Source: a virus. From it: 22,566 nucleotides of DNA. The stretch spans positions 1 through 22,566 of IMG/VR virus record IMGVR_UViG_3300037070_004746; one strand, given 5' to 3'. The translations under genes and the position numbers were made by a program. Position 1 is the first letter of the stretch. The number at the start of each line of letters is the position of its first letter. Below the pieces are notes generated by a model. The model was not told the DNA's origin, made no database searches, and worked only from the letters and a program-made list of their open reading frames with translations. Shown here piece by piece: positions 4,221-12,765 of the stretch.

Positions 4221-4486
4221 TGCTCGCCGCGCATGATCTCGAGCCGGCGTTCCATGTCGGCCAGCCTTGCCATGTCGCGCTCGTGCACATGGTCGAGCTT
4301 GACCAGTTCGTCGCGGATCGCGGCACGCTGCCGGCGCCATGCAGTATCAATCTCGATCGCCTTGTTGCGCACCATGCTCAAGACGCTGGCGGCCTTGTCG
4401 ACATAGGCGCGCACTTCGTCGCGATCGGTGCGGTGCGCTTCGAGGTTGGCGAGCGATGCGGCCATTGAGCGGGCTGGTTCGGTCAT
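4217..4486 (-). CDS. Coiled-coil protein of unknown function
   Basis: An 89-residue, highly charged protein that is likely to be almost entirely alpha-helical, with heptad-like spacing from about residue 20 to the end (ELVKLDHVHERDMARLADME). There is no membrane segment or cysteine. Its ATG at 4486 overlaps the stop of the gene before it, and its TGA overlaps the ATG of the PP-loop gene, so it is co-translated with that enzyme and may be its partner. No family is recognised. Confidence 0.7.
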   Translation of the reverse strand: MTEPARSMAASLANLEAHRTDRDEVRAYVDKAASVLSMVRNKAIEIDTAWRRQRAAIRDELVKLDHVHERDMARLADMERRLEIMRGEQ

Positions 4487-4662
4487 GCTGGTTTCCTTCT
4501 GGGTTTGCGTTCACGTTCGGCGAGGATCCGCGCCTTTGCCTTCAGCGCCTTTTTGAGCGCCGGGCTTATCTTCAGCGGCTCGCTTAGGTGCGGCAGTTTT
4601 GCGCGCACCGCGGCGATGTCTTCCGGGCTGAGTTCCATTGCCGGGTTTGGCGGTTTTGCCAT
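4483..4662 (-). CDS. Small basic protein overlapping the replication gene
   Basis: A 59-residue product starting MAKPPNPAMELSPEDIAAV and ending in a lysine/arginine-rich tail (RERKPRRKPA). The middle, PEDIAAVRAKLPHLSEPLK, reads like a real folded helical protein. It overlaps the 3' end of the DUF1376 gene by 152 bases in another frame, an unusually long overlap. Its TGA overlaps the next ATG (ATGA), which supports translation. Neither the ATG at 4662 nor the one at 4638 has a clear ribosome-binding site. The frame stays open upstream to 4800, so a frameshift out of the DUF1376 frame is an alternative way to express it. Confidence 0.5.
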   Translation of the reverse strand: MAKPPNPAMELSPEDIAAVRAKLPHLSEPLKISPALKKALKAKARILAERERKPRRKPA

Positions 4663-5275
4663 TGGGGTAAACTTTCGCGAGCAGTGTCGACGGTGGCGGC
4701 CACGGCTTGTCCGGAGGTGGTGCCCCACCTTTCGCAATAGGTGGCTGCGGCGAGCGGCCCTCAAGGCCGAGCGAGCCAGCAGACGCCGGTGCGCTTCCAT
4801 TTCCGGTTGTGCTCGCGTGGAAGCTAGGCGCTAAGGAAGAAAGGTTATTATTACTATCTAGATTCTGGTCGCGATCGCGCGCGTGAGGGCGCGCACGCGT
4901 AGTATTCGTTGACTTTTTTGGTGTTCCAGAGGGGTAGCTACTAGGGTAGCTACTAGGGTAGCTACTAGGGTAGCTACTACCCTCCAACAAGTTAAATTCC
5001 TTGTCGGCGCGGCCGTTGTGCAGGTTGCCCTCGCTGTCTGTGGATAGCTTGTGGATATCTATCAGCCGTTGCACCCGCTTGGCGGCGTCCGGTGCCTTCT
5101 GGCAACGCAGCAGCAGATGCCGCAGCACATAGGGATCATTCGGCACCTTGCCGCCCTGGTCATAGATGAAGGCCAGCAGCCGGATATAGTCGCCGGTTTC
5201 GCCTGGCGTCATGAAGCGCGTGCCGTCCAGGAAGTTGCTGGGATAGAACTTGAACCAGCTGCCCGCGCGCGTCAT
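4511..5275 (-). CDS. DUF1376-type replication protein (lambda O-like position)
   Basis: A 254-residue protein. Residues 1-95 match the DUF1376 N-terminal domain: FKFYPSNFLDGTRFMTPGETGDYIRLLAF, then DQGGKVPNDP and a helical segment. This winged-helix-like domain is common in phage replication genes. Residues about 100-115 are four SSYP repeats encoded by a 12-bp tandem array. The rest is low-complexity and basic, probably disordered, ending GKGADPRRT. The ATG at 5275 overlaps the VRR-NUC stop (ATGA). It is the second gene after the Cro-like gene, the place of O in lambda, so initiation of phage replication is likely. The repeats, AT-rich stretches and DnaA-like boxes inside the gene suggest that it also contains the origin. 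Confidence 0.75.
   Translation of the reverse strand: MTRAGSWFKFYPSNFLDGTRFMTPGETGDYIRLLAFIYDQGGKVPNDPYVLRHLLLRCQKAPDAAKRVQRLIDIHKLSTDSEGNLHNGRADKEFNLLEGSSYPSSYPSSYPSSYPSGTPKKSTNTTRARPHARDRDQNLDSNNNLSSLAPSFHASTTGNGSAPASAGSLGLEGRSPQPPIAKGGAPPPDKPWPPPSTLLAKVYPNGKTAKPGNGTQPGRHRRGARKTAAPKRAAEDKPGAQKGAEGKGADPRRT
4829..4866. other. AT-rich stretch inside the replication gene
   Basis: A notably AT-rich run (GGTTATTATTACTATCTAGA and flanks) within otherwise GC-rich coding DNA, about 65 bp from the 12-bp repeats. A second AT-rich run with six consecutive T lies at 4902-4922. These could be unwinding elements of an origin. This rests on base composition only. Confidence 0.35.
4932..4979. repeat. Four perfect 12-bp tandem repeats (iteron candidate)
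   Basis: Four identical head-to-tail copies of GGGTAGCTACTA, each with the 8-bp palindrome GTAGCTAC at its centre. They encode SSYP four times on the minus strand, so the reading frame is kept. A repeat array inside the putative initiator gene resembles the lambda origin inside gene O. Alternatively it is a simple coding minisatellite. Confidence 0.85.
5039..5058. promoter_or_regulatory. Pair of DnaA-box-like sites
   Basis: On the minus strand CTATCCACA (5047-5039) and ATATCCACA (5058-5050) each resemble the DnaA box TTATCCACA with one or two changes. Their starts are 11 bp apart, about one helical turn. They lie 60 bp from the tandem repeats in the same gene. Two near-matches can occur by chance, so this is weak alone. 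Confidence 0.35.
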
Positions 5276-5679
5276 GCGGCGATCCTCGCCTTGCACGCGC
5301 CCCAGAACCGCAGGATGGCCACCGCCTCGTTGAACGAGCGCGCCACCGCGCAGGTGCAGCACTCCTTTCCGCCATTGCGCTCGAAGAAAGCCTGTTGCGC
5401 CCCAGTCAGCGGCTGCTTTGCCCACTTCAGCTCAAGGAAATAGGAAAGCCCGGTCGGCGACAGGAACTGCAGGTCCGGCACGCCCGGCTTGGCGCCCATG
5501 CGCTTGAGCAATGCGCCGGTTTTCTCGGTGCGGAACTCGCCGTTGGGTATGGCGAAAAACTCCCAGCCCGGTGATAGCCCACCCTTATCGAGCAGGTCGC
5601 ACAGCGCGATCTGCATGCGGCGCTCGGCATGCACGCGCGGCGGCGGCTTCAGCAGATCGATCTGGCGCCAGGTGGTCAA
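5272..5679 (-). CDS. VRR-NUC domain nuclease
   Basis: A 135-residue protein made of one VRR-NUC (PD-(D/E)XK superfamily) domain. Conserved features are E19 near the N-terminus, NGE at 46-48, GVPD with D69, the catalytic pair E83-x-K85 in YFLELKW, and Q95-Q96. The family includes the nuclease module of FAN1 and many stand-alone phage enzymes that probably act on branched or recombining DNA. The frame starts at TTG (5679), supported by a strong GGAGGGG about 8 bases upstream. A nearby ATG at 5686 is out of frame. It is the first gene of the left operon, coupled to the replication gene, which fits a role in replication or repair intermediates. Confidence 0.88.
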   Translation of the reverse strand: MTTWRQIDLLKPPPRVHAERRMQIALCDLLDKGGLSPGWEFFAIPNGEFRTEKTGALLKRMGAKPGVPDLQFLSPTGLSYFLELKWAKQPLTGAQQAFFERNGGKECCTCAVARSFNEAVAILRFWGACKARIAA

Positions 5680-5900
5680 TGGCCATTCCCCTCCTTGCGG
5701 CGGGTTGGGTCCGGCCGCGGTTGACGTATCGAGTCAAAGGAAGGGAACGGGCATTGCCGGACGGGAGGTAGGCACCGTCCGACAACCCGTCAGCTGCAAC
5801 CGGACTCAATACATGACGGCAGCAGCAGCGACACATGTTCGGGCTAACGCAATGCTGGCCCCGCGCCGCCCGTGTGGCGCGTCGGCCCGAATGCACTAAG

Positions 5901-6155
5901 TTAAGCTGCGGAAGCAGGTGTCAGTGCGACTTCAACAGGATAGAGATCGGGGCGAAGAATGTGTCGTGAGACGCCAGAGGCTTTTTCGATCGGGATCGCT
6001 TGGTCAGCCGGAATCATCCCTCGATACTTCCACGTGGTCACATGACTACGGGTCTTGCCAATCAACTCGGCAAGCTTCGTTTCGCCGCCCACAGCTTCAC
6101 ATGCTTTTGTGAGAGCTGCACGCCGTTCGGATCGAACCGCCGCCTGCTCATCCAT
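5901..6155 (-). CDS. Cro-like/YdaS-type transcriptional regulator
   Basis: An 84-residue DNA-binding protein. A helix-turn-helix spans about residues 20-50 (VGGETKLAELIGKTRSHVTTWKYRG as its core), followed by IPADQAIPIEKASGVSRHILRPDLYP. This ending is the hallmark of the YdaS/Cro group of phage regulators. It is divergent from the CI-like gene and separated from it by three operators. The predicted -10 element lies only a few bases upstream of the ATG, and there is no convincing Shine-Dalgarno, so the message may be leaderless. By analogy with lambda it would turn down the repressor gene and commit the phage to lytic growth. Confidence 0.87.
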   Translation of the reverse strand: MDEQAAVRSERRAALTKACEAVGGETKLAELIGKTRSHVTTWKYRGMIPADQAIPIEKASGVSRHILRPDLYPVEVALTPASAA

Positions 6156-6160
6156 GTCTC

Positions 6161-6190
6161 AAATACATACAAATGTAGGCTTCCAAGTCA
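6161..6190 (-). promoter_or_regulatory. Candidate leftward early promoter
   Basis: On the minus strand TTGACT (6190-6185) is followed after 18 bp by TGTATT (6166-6161), with operator 1 in the spacer. Transcription would begin very near the ATG of the Cro-like gene at 6155. The -10 match is moderate, so the exact hexamer is uncertain. Confidence 0.5.
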
Positions 6191-6225
6191 ACACCAATGT
6201 ATGCGAAAAGCTGTCTACGTTAGTA
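6168..6225. promoter_or_regulatory. Triple operator of the CI/Cro switch
   Basis: Three sites fit TAC-N4-GTA: TACAAATGTA (6168-6177), CACCAATGTA (6192-6201, one change) and TACGTTAGTA (6216-6225). Sites 1 and 3 are followed by GGC and site 2 by TGC. Start-to-start spacing is exactly 24 bp in both intervals. The third site ends three bases before the CI-like ATG. The arrangement resembles the three-site operators of lambdoid phages, and near-identical sites recur at 9150-9180. Confidence 0.7.
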
Positions 6226-6228
6226 GGC

Positions 6229-6573
6229 ATGGCAACACTGGGCGACAGGGTCAGGGAAGAACGGGAGGCGCGAGGATGGAGTCTCCAGCGGCTTGCCAAT
6301 GAAACATCGAAAATCGCACAGGAGAAGTGCCCCAGGGTAACAATCGAGAAGATCGAATCTCGTGGCTCGGGGTATTCGAAATGGGGCCGGCCGATAGCGC
6401 TGGCTCTCGGCGTCAATCCCCATTGGCTTGCGACTGGCGAGGGATCAAAGACTCTCGGGCGGAGCATCGATCGCAAGCTGCAGCTGCTACCGCCTGCCGA
6501 CTATGACGAACTCTACAACCAGTTTGATACGCTTATTGAAGAGCGTCTGACACGCAAGCGCACCGGGACGTGA
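6229..6573 (+). CDS. CI-like repressor, short form (XRE HTH)
   Basis: A 114-residue protein with an XRE-type helix-turn-helix at about residues 5-72 (LGDRVREEREARGWSLQRLA, then VTIEKIESRG, ending ALGVNPHWLATGEG). The last 40 residues are a charged helix. There is no LexA/S24 peptidase domain, so RecA-stimulated self-cleavage is not expected and induction must work another way. The frame is open back to 6055, but the ATG at 6229 begins the standard domain and avoids overlap with the divergent gene. Its position opposite a Cro-like gene across three operators supports a role as the lysogenic repressor. Confidence 0.85.
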   Translation: MATLGDRVREEREARGWSLQRLANETSKIAQEKCPRVTIEKIESRGSGYSKWGRPIALALGVNPHWLATGEGSKTLGRSIDRKLQLLPPADYDELYNQFDTLIEERLTRKRTGT

Positions 6574-6604
6574 CGATGGTGAACGCACGTTGTTGAGTGG
6601 CGAG

Positions 6605-6844
6605 CTAACTGTCGCGAGGCAGCGGCTGCATGGCTGCTTGCTGCAGTTGTTTGACATTGATTTTTTTCGTCGCCAGCAAGCGCAGGATGATTGCCACCAT
6701 GCTCGGCACGCGATTTTCGGCCAATGCCCAGGAGCGCACGCTGCGCGGAGCGGCACTGATTAGGCGAGCAAAAGCCAGTTGCGATAGCTGCGCTTCGGCT
6801 AGGCCCTTACGGAATTCTTCAGCGTTCATCGTGACATAGAGCAT
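6605..6844 (-). CDS. Small HTH DNA-binding protein
   Basis: A 79-residue protein with a helix-turn-helix: FRKGLAEAQLSQLAFARLI, then APRSVRSWALAENRVPSMVA, then ILRLL. This is a common phage and proteobacterial family of one-domain regulators. The ATG at 6844 follows GAGGA by about 9 bases, and a second in-frame ATG at 6829 is possible. It is convergent with the CI-like gene and divergent from the 7009 gene. A palindrome (TAGGC-N7-GCCTA, 6869-6885) upstream of its start may be its own operator. Its target is not known, and control of the ParB-like genes to its right would fit the layout. Confidence 0.8.
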   Translation of the reverse strand: MLYVTMNAEEFRKGLAEAQLSQLAFARLISAAPRSVRSWALAENRVPSMVAIILRLLATKKINVKQLQQAAMQPLPRDS

Positions 6845-6918: not shown

Positions 6919-6947
6919 TTGACAAGTAGGCGCGGCGCGCCTATCCC
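6919..6947 (+). promoter_or_regulatory. Candidate promoter with a palindrome in the spacer
   Basis: TTGACA (6919-6924) and TATCCC (6942-6947) are separated by 17 bp. The spacer contains the perfect 13-bp palindrome GGCGCGGCGCGCC (6929-6941). The -35 is ideal and the -10 is weak, as expected for a regulated promoter. The message would have a leader of about 55 bases before the ATG at 7009. Confidence 0.45.
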
Positions 6948-7008
6948 GTTCGATCGGCTGGGCAGTTGTCCGATTGGATGGATGGACGCAGCCGAATGGA
7001 GGAAAGTC

Positions 7009-8028
7009 ATGAGTGCCGAGTCTGTAACGAGTACCGTAGCGGAGCCGACTGCCGCCGTGTGGCAGCCGCAATTCAAGCTCGATCTGAAGACCGCAAGCGC
7101 GGAGCAATTCGCCAATCTGGTCGATCAGTTCGAGGAATGGCGCAAGACGCAGCCCGAGGACGACGCTGATATGCTGGCCGATGGCTGGCATCTCATCACG
7201 CCCGAAAAGGCCGAGCGTCTGCTTCTCCGCAATCCGGCAGGGGCGAACCGCAAAGTCAGCTTCGCCGCTGTCGTCTACTATGCTCTCCAGATGCTGGCCG
7301 ACGATTGGCCGGAAACCGGGCAGGCGATCATCTTCGATATCTTGAAGCGTCTGCTCGATGGCCAGCACCGCTTGTGGGCGGGGTATCTGTCGGGCGTTCC
7401 GTTCTGGACGTATATCGTCAATCAGCGCAAGGCGATCCCCTCGGCCTTCGCTTATATCGACAACGTCAAGGCGCGCACGCCCAAGGATGCACTGGTCACG
7501 GCCGGACTCAATGGACTGTCCGGTCTGTCCACTCAGGTGGTCATCATGGCGCAGCATTATTTCAACGGCGCCTACACGCCCACCAAGAAGCACAAGATGC
7601 CAAAGATGTCGCCCAAGCAGGTGATCGACTATTTCGTGGCGCATCCGAACATCCGCCAGGCAGTCTATCTAATGGCCGGCGAACATGCCTCTGCATCCGC
7701 GATGATCTACCACAAGGATGTGGCTGCCTTCACGGCGGTCCTTATCCTTGATGCCCATAACGAGCTGACGCTCGATGACTTCATGGGCGAGGTCGGCGTC
7801 GAGGATGATACGCACTTCGCTGCCGGCAGCCCAATCGGCGCGCTCCAGCACTTGCTGAAGCAGGATCGGCTGGCCAAGGAGCCGATGACCAAACATCAGA
7901 TCCTTGGACACGTCATCAAGGCGTTCAACTATTGGCATCTCGGCGAGCAGAAAAAGAAGATCACCCTGCCCGTCAGCGAGCCGTTCCCGAGCATCATCGC
8001 GCCCGAGCCAGAAGCTCAAGCCGCCTGA
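7009..8028 (+). CDS. ParB-fold DGQHR-motif protein
   Basis: A 339-residue protein. Residues 55-140 contain the phage family signature: ITPEKAERLLLRN, then NRKVS, then TGQAIIFD followed by LLDGQHRLWAG with DGQHR at 117-121, and the PFWTYIV strand. The DGQHR loop belongs to the ParB/sulfiredoxin-like fold and is also present in DndB-type proteins. The C-terminal two-thirds is helical and of unknown role. The ATG at 7009 has GGAGG six bases upstream. The frame is open to 6919, which overlaps the promoter. It is followed by an attenuator-like hairpin and then another ParB-domain gene. No function has been proven for this phage family, and nucleotide binding or DNA modification are possibilities. 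Confidence 0.8.
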   Translation: MSAESVTSTVAEPTAAVWQPQFKLDLKTASAEQFANLVDQFEEWRKTQPEDDADMLADGWHLITPEKAERLLLRNPAGANRKVSFAAVVYYALQMLADDWPETGQAIIFDILKRLLDGQHRLWAGYLSGVPFWTYIVNQRKAIPSAFAYIDNVKARTPKDALVTAGLNGLSGLSTQVVIMAQHYFNGAYTPTKKHKMPKMSPKQVIDYFVAHPNIRQAVYLMAGEHASASAMIYHKDVAAFTAVLILDAHNELTLDDFMGEVGVEDDTHFAAGSPIGALQHLLKQDRLAKEPMTKHQILGHVIKAFNYWHLGEQKKKITLPVSEPFPSIIAPEPEAQAA

Positions 8029-8110: not shown

Positions 8111-9106
8111 ATGACCAGCAGATATAACGACCACCCGTTCGCCGCGATCTGGCCGCTGATGACCGACGATGCCCTTATCGCGCTCGCCGAGGACATCAAG
8201 GCCAACGGCCAGCACCTGCCGATCCTGCTCTACCAGGGGTCGATCCTTGACGGCCGCTGCCGCGACCGGGCATGCGGGATCGCCGGCGTCGAGCCGCGCT
8301 ATGAACCGACAGCCGCAGCCAACGACGACGAGGCGCTAGACCTCGTCGTGTCGCTCAACGAGCATCGCCGCCATCTAAGCATGGAAGAACGCGCCTTTGC
8401 CGCAGCAAGACTGGCCAACATGAAGCAAGGCAGTCATTGGGCAAATAAGCGCAAAGAAGAAAAAGTAAAACGTTCATTTGAAAGTTTTACTTCTGAAAAA
8501 CCGCAAAATCACAGTATCCAGGTTTATGATGCTGCGAAGCTTCTGGACGTGTCTGTCCCAGCTGTTGCCCGCGCCCGCGTCATCATCAAGCATGCGCCGG
8601 AACTCGAAAAGGATGTCGTCGCCGGGAACGCGTCACTTTCGGCAACAGCCGCGACCGTCCGCTCAAAGCGCAAGGCGAAGGCCGCCGCCAAGGCACCAGA
8701 GATTACGCCCTACCAGCGCGCACTCGGCAACTATGCACCCAAGGCAAAATTCCTGACCAGCGAGGAAGTCGATCCCGATTTCAAAGGTACGCCGCTGGAG
8801 TTCGCGACCAAGTACGGCCACGTCAATCTCAGCCCGGCCAGCGAGATCGAGCGCGAGGCGGCAACGAAACGTGCCGGCGACCTGATGACGTGGATGAAGC
8901 AATGCATCGGCTCGGCACCGGCCGAGGTCAGCGATGCCGACCTGCTCATCTGGATAACCGGCGACGGCAAGGAGCCGGGCCATCGGCGCGAGAAGCTAGA
9001 AAAGCGCTGGGCTGATTTTGAGGCTCTCTATTCGCGCCTTGCTGGCTTGCGCGCCAAGCTGGAGTCGCAGCTCACCGGCAAGCCGGTCGAGGTCAAGGGC
9101 GGCTAG
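8111..9106 (+). CDS. ParB N-terminal domain protein
   Basis: A 331-residue protein. Residues 5-70 form a ParB-type N-terminal domain: HPFAAIWPLMTDDALIALAEDI, NGQHLPILLY, and ILDGRCRDRA, which corresponds to the nucleotide-binding DGR loop. Residues about 75-190 resemble the helical ParB middle, with LNEHRRHLSMEERA and the helix VYDAAKLLDVSVPAVARARVI. The C-terminal third is charged and helical. The ATG at 8111 follows AAGGGGAG. A local AT-rich patch at 8441-8545 contains a 30-bp near-palindrome. Proteins of this group in phages act as regulators, partition-like DNA binders or nucleases, and the sequence does not distinguish these roles. No partner ParA is present in the window. Confidence 0.82.
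   Translation: MTSRYNDHPFAAIWPLMTDDALIALAEDIKANGQHLPILLYQGSILDGRCRDRACGIAGVEPRYEPTAAANDDEALDLVVSLNEHRRHLSMEERAFAAARLANMKQGSHWANKRKEEKVKRSFESFTSEKPQNHSIQVYDAAKLLDVSVPAVARARVIIKHAPELEKDVVAGNASLSATAATVRSKRKAKAAAKAPEITPYQRALGNYAPKAKFLTSEEVDPDFKGTPLEFATKYGHVNLSPASEIEREAATKRAGDLMTWMKQCIGSAPAEVSDADLLIWITGDGKEPGHRREKLEKRWADFEALYSRLAGLRAKLESQLTGKPVEVKGG
8463..8492. repeat. AT-rich 30-bp inverted repeat inside the parB-like gene
   Basis: Arms AAGTAAAAC (8463-8471) and GTTTTACTT (8484-8492) are perfect complements. The 12-base centre contains TTCATTTGAA, itself almost symmetric. The element lies in a clearly AT-rich patch of a GC-rich gene. It could be a binding site for the encoded ParB-like protein. 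Confidence 0.6.
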
Positions 9107-12325: not shown

Positions 12326-12580
12326 ATGTCCCTGAAGCCTGACCCCAAATCCTACCCGCCGCTCGGCATGTCGCGCGAGGACGCGGCCCACTATATCGGC
12401 ATCGGCCCGACCCTGTTCGACGAGATGGTCAGGGACCGGCGCATGCCGCGGCCGAAGTGCGTCAACAACCGCAAGGTATGGGATCAGGAAGCTCTGCGCC
12501 TCGCGTTCAAGGCGCTGCCCGGCGACGAGGAAAATACGCTCGACGCGCTGTTCGCCGAGGGTGCCAGGCGGCGTGGATAA
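12326..12580 (+). CDS. Excisionase-like HTH protein, copy 1
   Basis: An 84-residue protein with the pattern YPPLGMSREDAAHYIGIG, then LFDEMVRDRRMPRP, then VWDQEALRLAFKALPG. This is the MerR/AlpA-like winged helix seen in excisionases and phage regulators. It is clearly paralogous to the product of 12766-13002 on the other strand. The two genes point at each other across a 185-bp gap full of TGGATAA boxes, and the TAA stop of this gene lies inside the first box. It is made from the early operon, so it could provide the Xis activity during induction. Its C-terminus has a short extra tail (LDALFAEGARRRG). Confidence 0.78.
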   Translation: MSLKPDPKSYPPLGMSREDAAHYIGIGPTLFDEMVRDRRMPRPKCVNNRKVWDQEALRLAFKALPGDEENTLDALFAEGARRRG

Positions 12581-12756
12581 TCGGGCGGCAGAGTTGGATA
12601 ACCGGGCGGTACGATGCGGGAACAAGATGGATAACCGGCCTCGCAAGTCTTTGATTTTTGTACTGGCATGCCTCAACATGATACAAAGTCAAGGCCCCTA
12701 TCATTTCAAAGGCTTACGAGGCATTTATCCACACCCCTTGTACAATGATTTATCCA
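12574..12756. repeat. Five TGGATAA boxes, candidate attP or origin
   Basis: TGGATAA occurs on the plus strand at 12574, 12595 and 12628 and on the minus strand at 12725-12731 and 12750-12756, so all copies point inward. The first two share a longer GGATAAYCGGGCGG block 21 bp apart, and the third shares GGATAACCGG. Box four extends to TTATCCACA, the exact DnaA-box consensus. The others differ at the last bases. The centre (about 12641-12690) is AT-rich, with TTTGTA/TACAAA arms and the palindrome GGCATGCC. The gap is the only convergent intergenic region near the integrase. Arm-type recombinase or Xis sites and a DnaA-dependent origin are both possible. Confidence 0.65.
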
Positions 12757-12765
12757 TAGGCACGG

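Follow-up and report, generated by a model that had tools for sequence, protein, structure and literature searches.

Iteron-like repeats within DUF1376 genes suggest a replication origin embedded in a phage initiator gene

A DUF1376 gene in a 22,566-nucleotide virus record (the window; at 22.6 kb, it looks partial) carries four perfect 12-bp repeats, which we interpret as the iterons of a theta-type phage origin located within the gene for its own initiator, in a lambda-like layout but with an unrelated initiator. We put the probability of this reading, which is based on comparative sequence analysis, at about 0.78. A preliminary description of the same DNA had likened the region to the origin in lambda gene O; the core of that proposal is strongly supported by the relatives of the gene and by the presence of the same palindrome pair in other initiator genes, whereas the part that involved DnaA boxes is not. 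If the reading is correct, a DUF1376 gene would allow the origin to be located from sequence alone in many phages and prophages of proteobacteria, and a domain that is still named for its “unknown function” would acquire a biochemical role. To our knowledge, most temperate phages that do not belong to the lambda group lack a mapped origin, and a search of the open-access literature turned up no report of an origin within a DUF1376 or ydaU gene.

Table 1. Features in and around the DUF1376 gene (window coordinates)
Feature	Position	Strand	Basis
YdaS/Cro-like regulator gene, first in the gene run that holds the DUF1376 gene	5901-6155	minus	Pfam YdaS_toxin, E 3.8e-15
Nuclease-like gene, directly upstream of the DUF1376 gene	5272-5679	minus	phrog_824; resolvase/endonuclease profiles
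DUF1376 gene, candidate replication initiator, 254 aa	4511-5275	minus	ORF, Pfam, PHROGs, AlphaFold2 model
Two DnaA-like boxes, CTATCCACA (5039-5047) and ATATCCACA (5050-5058)	5039-5058	minus	One mismatch each from TTATCCACA
Four perfect 12-bp repeats GGGTAGCTACTA (putative iterons), each with the 8-bp palindrome GTAGCTAC	4932-4979		Repeat search
AT-rich stretch adjoining the repeats (candidate unwinding element)	4903-4922		Sequence, A+T track
GC-rich inverted repeat, CGCGTGCGCGCCC..CACGCGCGCG on the coding strand	4876-4905		Stem found computationally
Second AT-rich stretch, GACCAGAATCTAGATAGTAATAATAACC on the coding strand	4840-4868		Sequence, A+T track, relatives

The DUF1376 gene and its repeat array

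The Pfam match to DUF1376 covers residues 7-93 of the protein (E 8.9e-6; 26.4 bits, slightly below the Pfam cut-off of 30.1), and in PHROGs the gene falls into phrog_9327, “primosomal protein” (E 5.6e-12). Confidence in the AlphaFold2 model is limited to about residues 10-100, which form a winged helix (domain boundaries at approximately residues 8 and 100) with helices at positions 24-40, 48-56, 64-73, and 88-100 plus the wing; beyond it are a low-confidence linker without predicted secondary structure and a tail. Among the folds nearest to this model are winged helices of ORC2, regulators of the Fur/Zur type, and a replication initiator; Z stays below 8 throughout, and a Foldseek search returned no matches at E 0.001 or better. 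The winged-helix assignment is made at the level of the predicted fold, and the domain may bind DNA. The position of the gene after a Cro-like gene, as previously described, holds in that it is downstream of the YdaS/Cro-like gene, but the nuclease-like gene intervenes. No gene for a helicase loader, DnaB, or P was found among the scanned genes of this seemingly partial record. A 59-aa ORF (MAKPPNPAMELSPEDIAAV..., 4483-4662, minus strand) overlaps the 3′ end of the DUF1376 gene in another frame, and a similar ORF is found in the same arrangement in the related locus L002; this arrangement suggests two genes on shared DNA.

The four copies of the 12-bp unit are positioned head to tail at 4932-4943, 4944-4955, 4956-4967, and 4968-4979; all are exact, and the palindrome within each of them is perfect, in agreement with the preliminary description. 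They occupy nucleotides 296 to 343 of the gene, immediately after the winged-helix domain, and the window contains no second array with four perfect copies. The exact periodic run of 36 nt compares with a maximum of 14 in 200 random 22.6-kb sequences of the size and composition of the window, and the longest period-12 run across 2,000 peptide-preserving codon shuffles of the gene was 23. In the reading frame of the gene, the array translates as (SSYP)n; because an in-frame 12-nt unit could also be explained by recent duplication, its perfection alone is not diagnostic of selection at the DNA level. The repeats could be a coding minisatellite: slippage that copied a 12-nt unit would have extended a flexible linker of Ser, Tyr, and Pro, and the DNA as such would have no function. 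The period of 12, which keeps the frame, the perfect copies, and the low-confidence linker without secondary structure all fit that explanation; the evidence that makes it unlikely comes from other DUF1376 genes (see below). A 21-nt piece of the array had no match in viral contigs, and no close relative sharing these iterons was detected, the searches for relatives yielding only L002 and distant proteins.

On one side of the array, the two AT-rich stretches reported earlier are real, though modest, with A+T contents of 65% at 4821-4860 and 57% at 4901-4940 against approximately 38% for the window (i.e., the region is approximately 62% G+C). The GACCAGAATCTAGATAGTAATAATAACC stretch resembles the ACCAGA/AATAATAA stretch seen in relatives, including L002, and GC-alternating stretches like the inverted repeat in Table 1 also follow the repeats in the Rac, Moraxella, and Ruegeria phage genes. 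The single-stranded fold of 4820-5000 has a z-score of -5.4, and the GC skew along the window has no clear turning point at the repeats.

On the opposite side from the AT-rich stretches, the two DnaA-like boxes are indeed spaced by 11 bp, one helical turn, with a single mismatch each. Their assignment to a conserved origin was nevertheless rejected: such boxes are not enriched in DUF1376 genes (8, compared with 10.2 ± 2.8 in shuffles) and are not conserved in the family, and among the DUF1376 genes compared, two one-mismatch boxes in a single gene are confined to the window. They are probably incidental.

Repeats in the linkers of DUF1376 genes

The preliminary description had proposed comparing the repeats in related phages. 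DUF1376 genes were collected from viral contigs, species genomes, and phage records and reduced to 111 non-redundant genes by a shared-12-mer threshold; the linker was scored as gene nucleotides 270 to 480 and a repeat as a 9-mer recurring within 50 nt. Linker repeats, with differing sequences, are present in 76 of these 111 genes, some of which are still kin by descent so that the counts are not fully independent events, as opposed to 17.2 ± 4.4 (maximum, 27) in peptide-preserving codon shuffles. The periods are not divisible by 3 in 52 genes, compared with 5.2 ± 2.2 (maximum, 10) in the shuffles, and therefore these are DNA repeats beyond what peptide repeats could produce. Short palindromes in the linkers are doubled (171 versus 86.8 ± 10), and hairpins with arms of at least 8 nt are found in 36 genes (3.6 ± 1.6 in shuffles). 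Outside the linker, there is little or no enrichment, with repeats in 8 genes at nucleotides 0 to 210 and in 10 genes at nucleotides 480 to 690. In neighboring genes of the same loci, repeats were detected in 68 of 882 tiles (7.7%), 18 of them with periods not divisible by three.

Among the repeat periods, 12, 11, 7, 22, and 24 bp occur most often, with peaks at 11, 12, 22, and 24 bp. The 11/12-bp and 22/24-bp periods equal approximately one and two helical turns, and the 7-bp period represents an additional element. Periods of 11, 7, or 22 bp, which are not peptide derived and are far more frequent than in peptide-preserving shuffles, argue against a coding minisatellite, as do the abundance of palindromes in the linker repeats of the family and the recurrence of the palindrome pair in other initiator genes.

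The sequence of the iterons varies from phage to phage. GCAATGC-like iterons are found in most alphaproteobacterial genes, GTTCAAC-like ones in phiLM21, in Moraxella, Pseudomonas, and Methylophilaceae phages, and in the Rac ydaU gene, and there are many other types. The order of elements is more uniform: iterons come first, followed by short A- or pyrimidine-rich repeats (AGAAGCC, ACCAATA, TCTCCG, CCTTCT) and often by an inverted repeat. Of the 35 genes with iterons as well as short repeats, 33 have the iterons first, and of the 17 genes with iterons and a hairpin, 16 have the hairpin second. A basic segment in front of the iterons (of the A..RW or AGxxSAxxR type) and short tandem repeats behind them are common but not universal among the DUF1376/YdaU genes with embedded iterons. 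The window fits this group in its winged-helix domain and near-helical-period (12-bp) linker repeats but is an unusual member of it: the domain leads straight into the iterons without an intervening basic segment, and behind the iterons the linker has only an AT-rich stretch in place of short (5- to 8-bp) tandem repeats. In Rac-SA53 YdaU, a DnaT domain lies behind the linker, and in several phages DUF1376 genes adjoin those for DnaC-like loaders, replication protein P, or DnaB.

The palindrome pair in other phage genes

Searching viral contigs for GTAGCTAC-N4-GTAGCTAC yielded 30 loci. At three of them, L196 and the related pair L184 and L190, the palindrome pair is inside a gene assigned by PHROGs to replication initiation proteins, and the L196 gene is directly upstream of a DnaB gene; this overlap is suggestive, not a formal test, and at several other loci the pair falls within structural genes or outside coding sequence. 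Origins of this embedded kind may be widespread among phage initiator genes. Three genes that do not belong to DUF1376 (L196:3552-4388, L197:8431-9672, and L208:13528-14295) have GTAGCTAC pairs 12 bp apart, followed by purine-rich stretches; those in L197 and L208, where the stretches are repeats, have no replication-initiation match. In L186, L188, L192, L199, and L201, GTAGCTAC pairs, several of them clustered, are located in short or non-coding stretches of other phages and are possibly operators or origins.

Comparison with known origins

In lambda gene O, the origin likewise comprises four repeats of imperfect dyad symmetry, situated midway through an initiator gene and beside an AT-rich, purine-rich stretch. 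The repeats are at nucleotides 348 to 432 of gene O versus 296 to 343 of the window gene, and, as a control, gene O was detected by our repeat analysis, with AAAAGA repeats after the iterons. The window shares with lambda the dyad repeats inside an initiator coding sequence and an adjacent AT-rich stretch (modest, at 57 to 65% A+T). The lambda iterons, however, are 18 bp long and separated by spacers, whereas those of the window are 12 bp long and head to tail. The earlier remark that DUF1376 is not visibly homologous to O is consistent with the profile comparison, which gave no match; the protein has no Phage_rep_O (PF04492) hit, and Pfam gives DUF1376 only. In Stx phages, extra iterons lengthen the O protein (PMC7466680).

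The Rac prophage has the gene order ydaS-ydaT-ydaU, with ydaV downstream; its DUF1376 gene, ydaU, lies behind ydaS and carries TGTTCAAACA/TGTTTGAACA linker repeats, and the window likewise has a YdaS/Cro-like gene at the head of the run. The repeat sequences differ, and the ydaV ATPase is present in Rac. An active origin, oriJ, has been reported for Rac (PMC3945230). In Sinorhizobium phage phiLM21, gp32 is also a DUF1376 gene annotated as coding for a primosomal protein and also has linker repeats, but these are 11-bp GTTCAAC repeats (a period that is not a multiple of three) followed by 7-bp AAGCCAG repeats, and a DnaB gene lies upstream. A putative origin with four repeats in an AT-rich region inside a replication gene was proposed, by analogy with lambda, for Francisella phage KIRK, whose protein belongs to a different family, Phg_2220_C (PMC7924643).

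We infer binding, unwinding, and replication by the DUF1376 protein at the repeats as follows. The protein, a winged helix with a disordered linker, would bind to the GTAGCTAC palindromes, which fall at successive turns of the helix, melt the adjoining AT-rich DNA, and recruit the replicative helicase, either directly or via a loader. Alternatively, the DUF1376 protein or the YdaS/Cro-like protein could bind the repeats in order to control the operon instead of initiating replication, given that the repeats are palindromic and lie downstream of the Cro-like regulator gene on the same strand. We consider such operator sites very unlikely: approximately 300 nt of the gene precede the repeats, a scan of 4400-6700 revealed no promoter-like site, and the order of iterons, short repeats, and hairpin in the family resembles the lambda origin.

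Other sites in the window

The origin could also be located elsewhere, at a cluster of TGGATAA/TTATCCA repeats at 12560-12760 that includes the sole perfect DnaA box of the window (12725-12733) along with several related repeats. This is highly improbable, as the cluster lies between two excisionase-like genes beside an integrase, as expected of attP arm sites, and its TGGATAACCGG/TTATCCA repeats look like such sites.

Two adjacent genes occupy 6919-8028 and 8111-9106, the latter with weak ParB-like profile matches. Tandem repeats can act as partition sites, and a centromere-like site used together with the 8111-9106 gene is the least probable of the alternatives, in view of the repeats accompanying the DUF1376 gene across many unrelated phages.

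Exchange of iterons together with a protein segment

If the repeats are an embedded origin, natural exchanges between related genes would open the evolution of origin specificity to direct tests. The DUF1376 proteins of loci L051, L052, and L056 are 78 to 84% identical to that of L046, and at the DNA level the four genes are very similar outside a stretch of approximately 95 nt (gene nucleotides 299 to 395). In L046, this stretch consists of RRAGIISAEKRKQNQ followed by CGTTCAACG-type repeats; in L051, L052, and L056, a RAARARWSKK-type segment precedes GCAATGC-like sites. Across the collection, the A..RW segment is accompanied by GCAATGC-type sites in 58 of 71 genes and never by GTTCAA-type sites, and the AGxxSAxxR segment is accompanied by GTTCAA-type sites in 7 of 9 genes and never by GCAATGC-type sites; the segment and site classes were defined after inspection of the data, and these tallies are descriptive, not a blind test. 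We tentatively propose, at somewhat less than even odds, that DUF1376 initiators have exchangeable origin cassettes of approximately 95 bp, in which a short protein segment that would set DNA specificity is encoded directly beside the iterons it binds, so that segment and iterons would be swapped in one step while the remaining gene is kept, as between L046 and the L051, L052, and L056 genes.

In the window and L002, the nuclease gene is 73% identical, the tail of the DUF1376 protein 68% (a value raised by the overlapping small ORF), and the following gene 95%, with the domain and linker unmatched. Since L002 shares the flanks but not the domain and linker, the latter two were replaced together in this pair.

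In the four genes with the swapped stretch (L046:3001-3807, L051:3001-3810, L052:3001-3804, and L056:318-1127), the cassette is flanked by nearly invariant DNA blocks, with CTACCTC...GAGGTAG before it and AACCAGAAGCCAGAAGCCAGA together with a GAAGAACCTACCGGTTCTTC hairpin after it.
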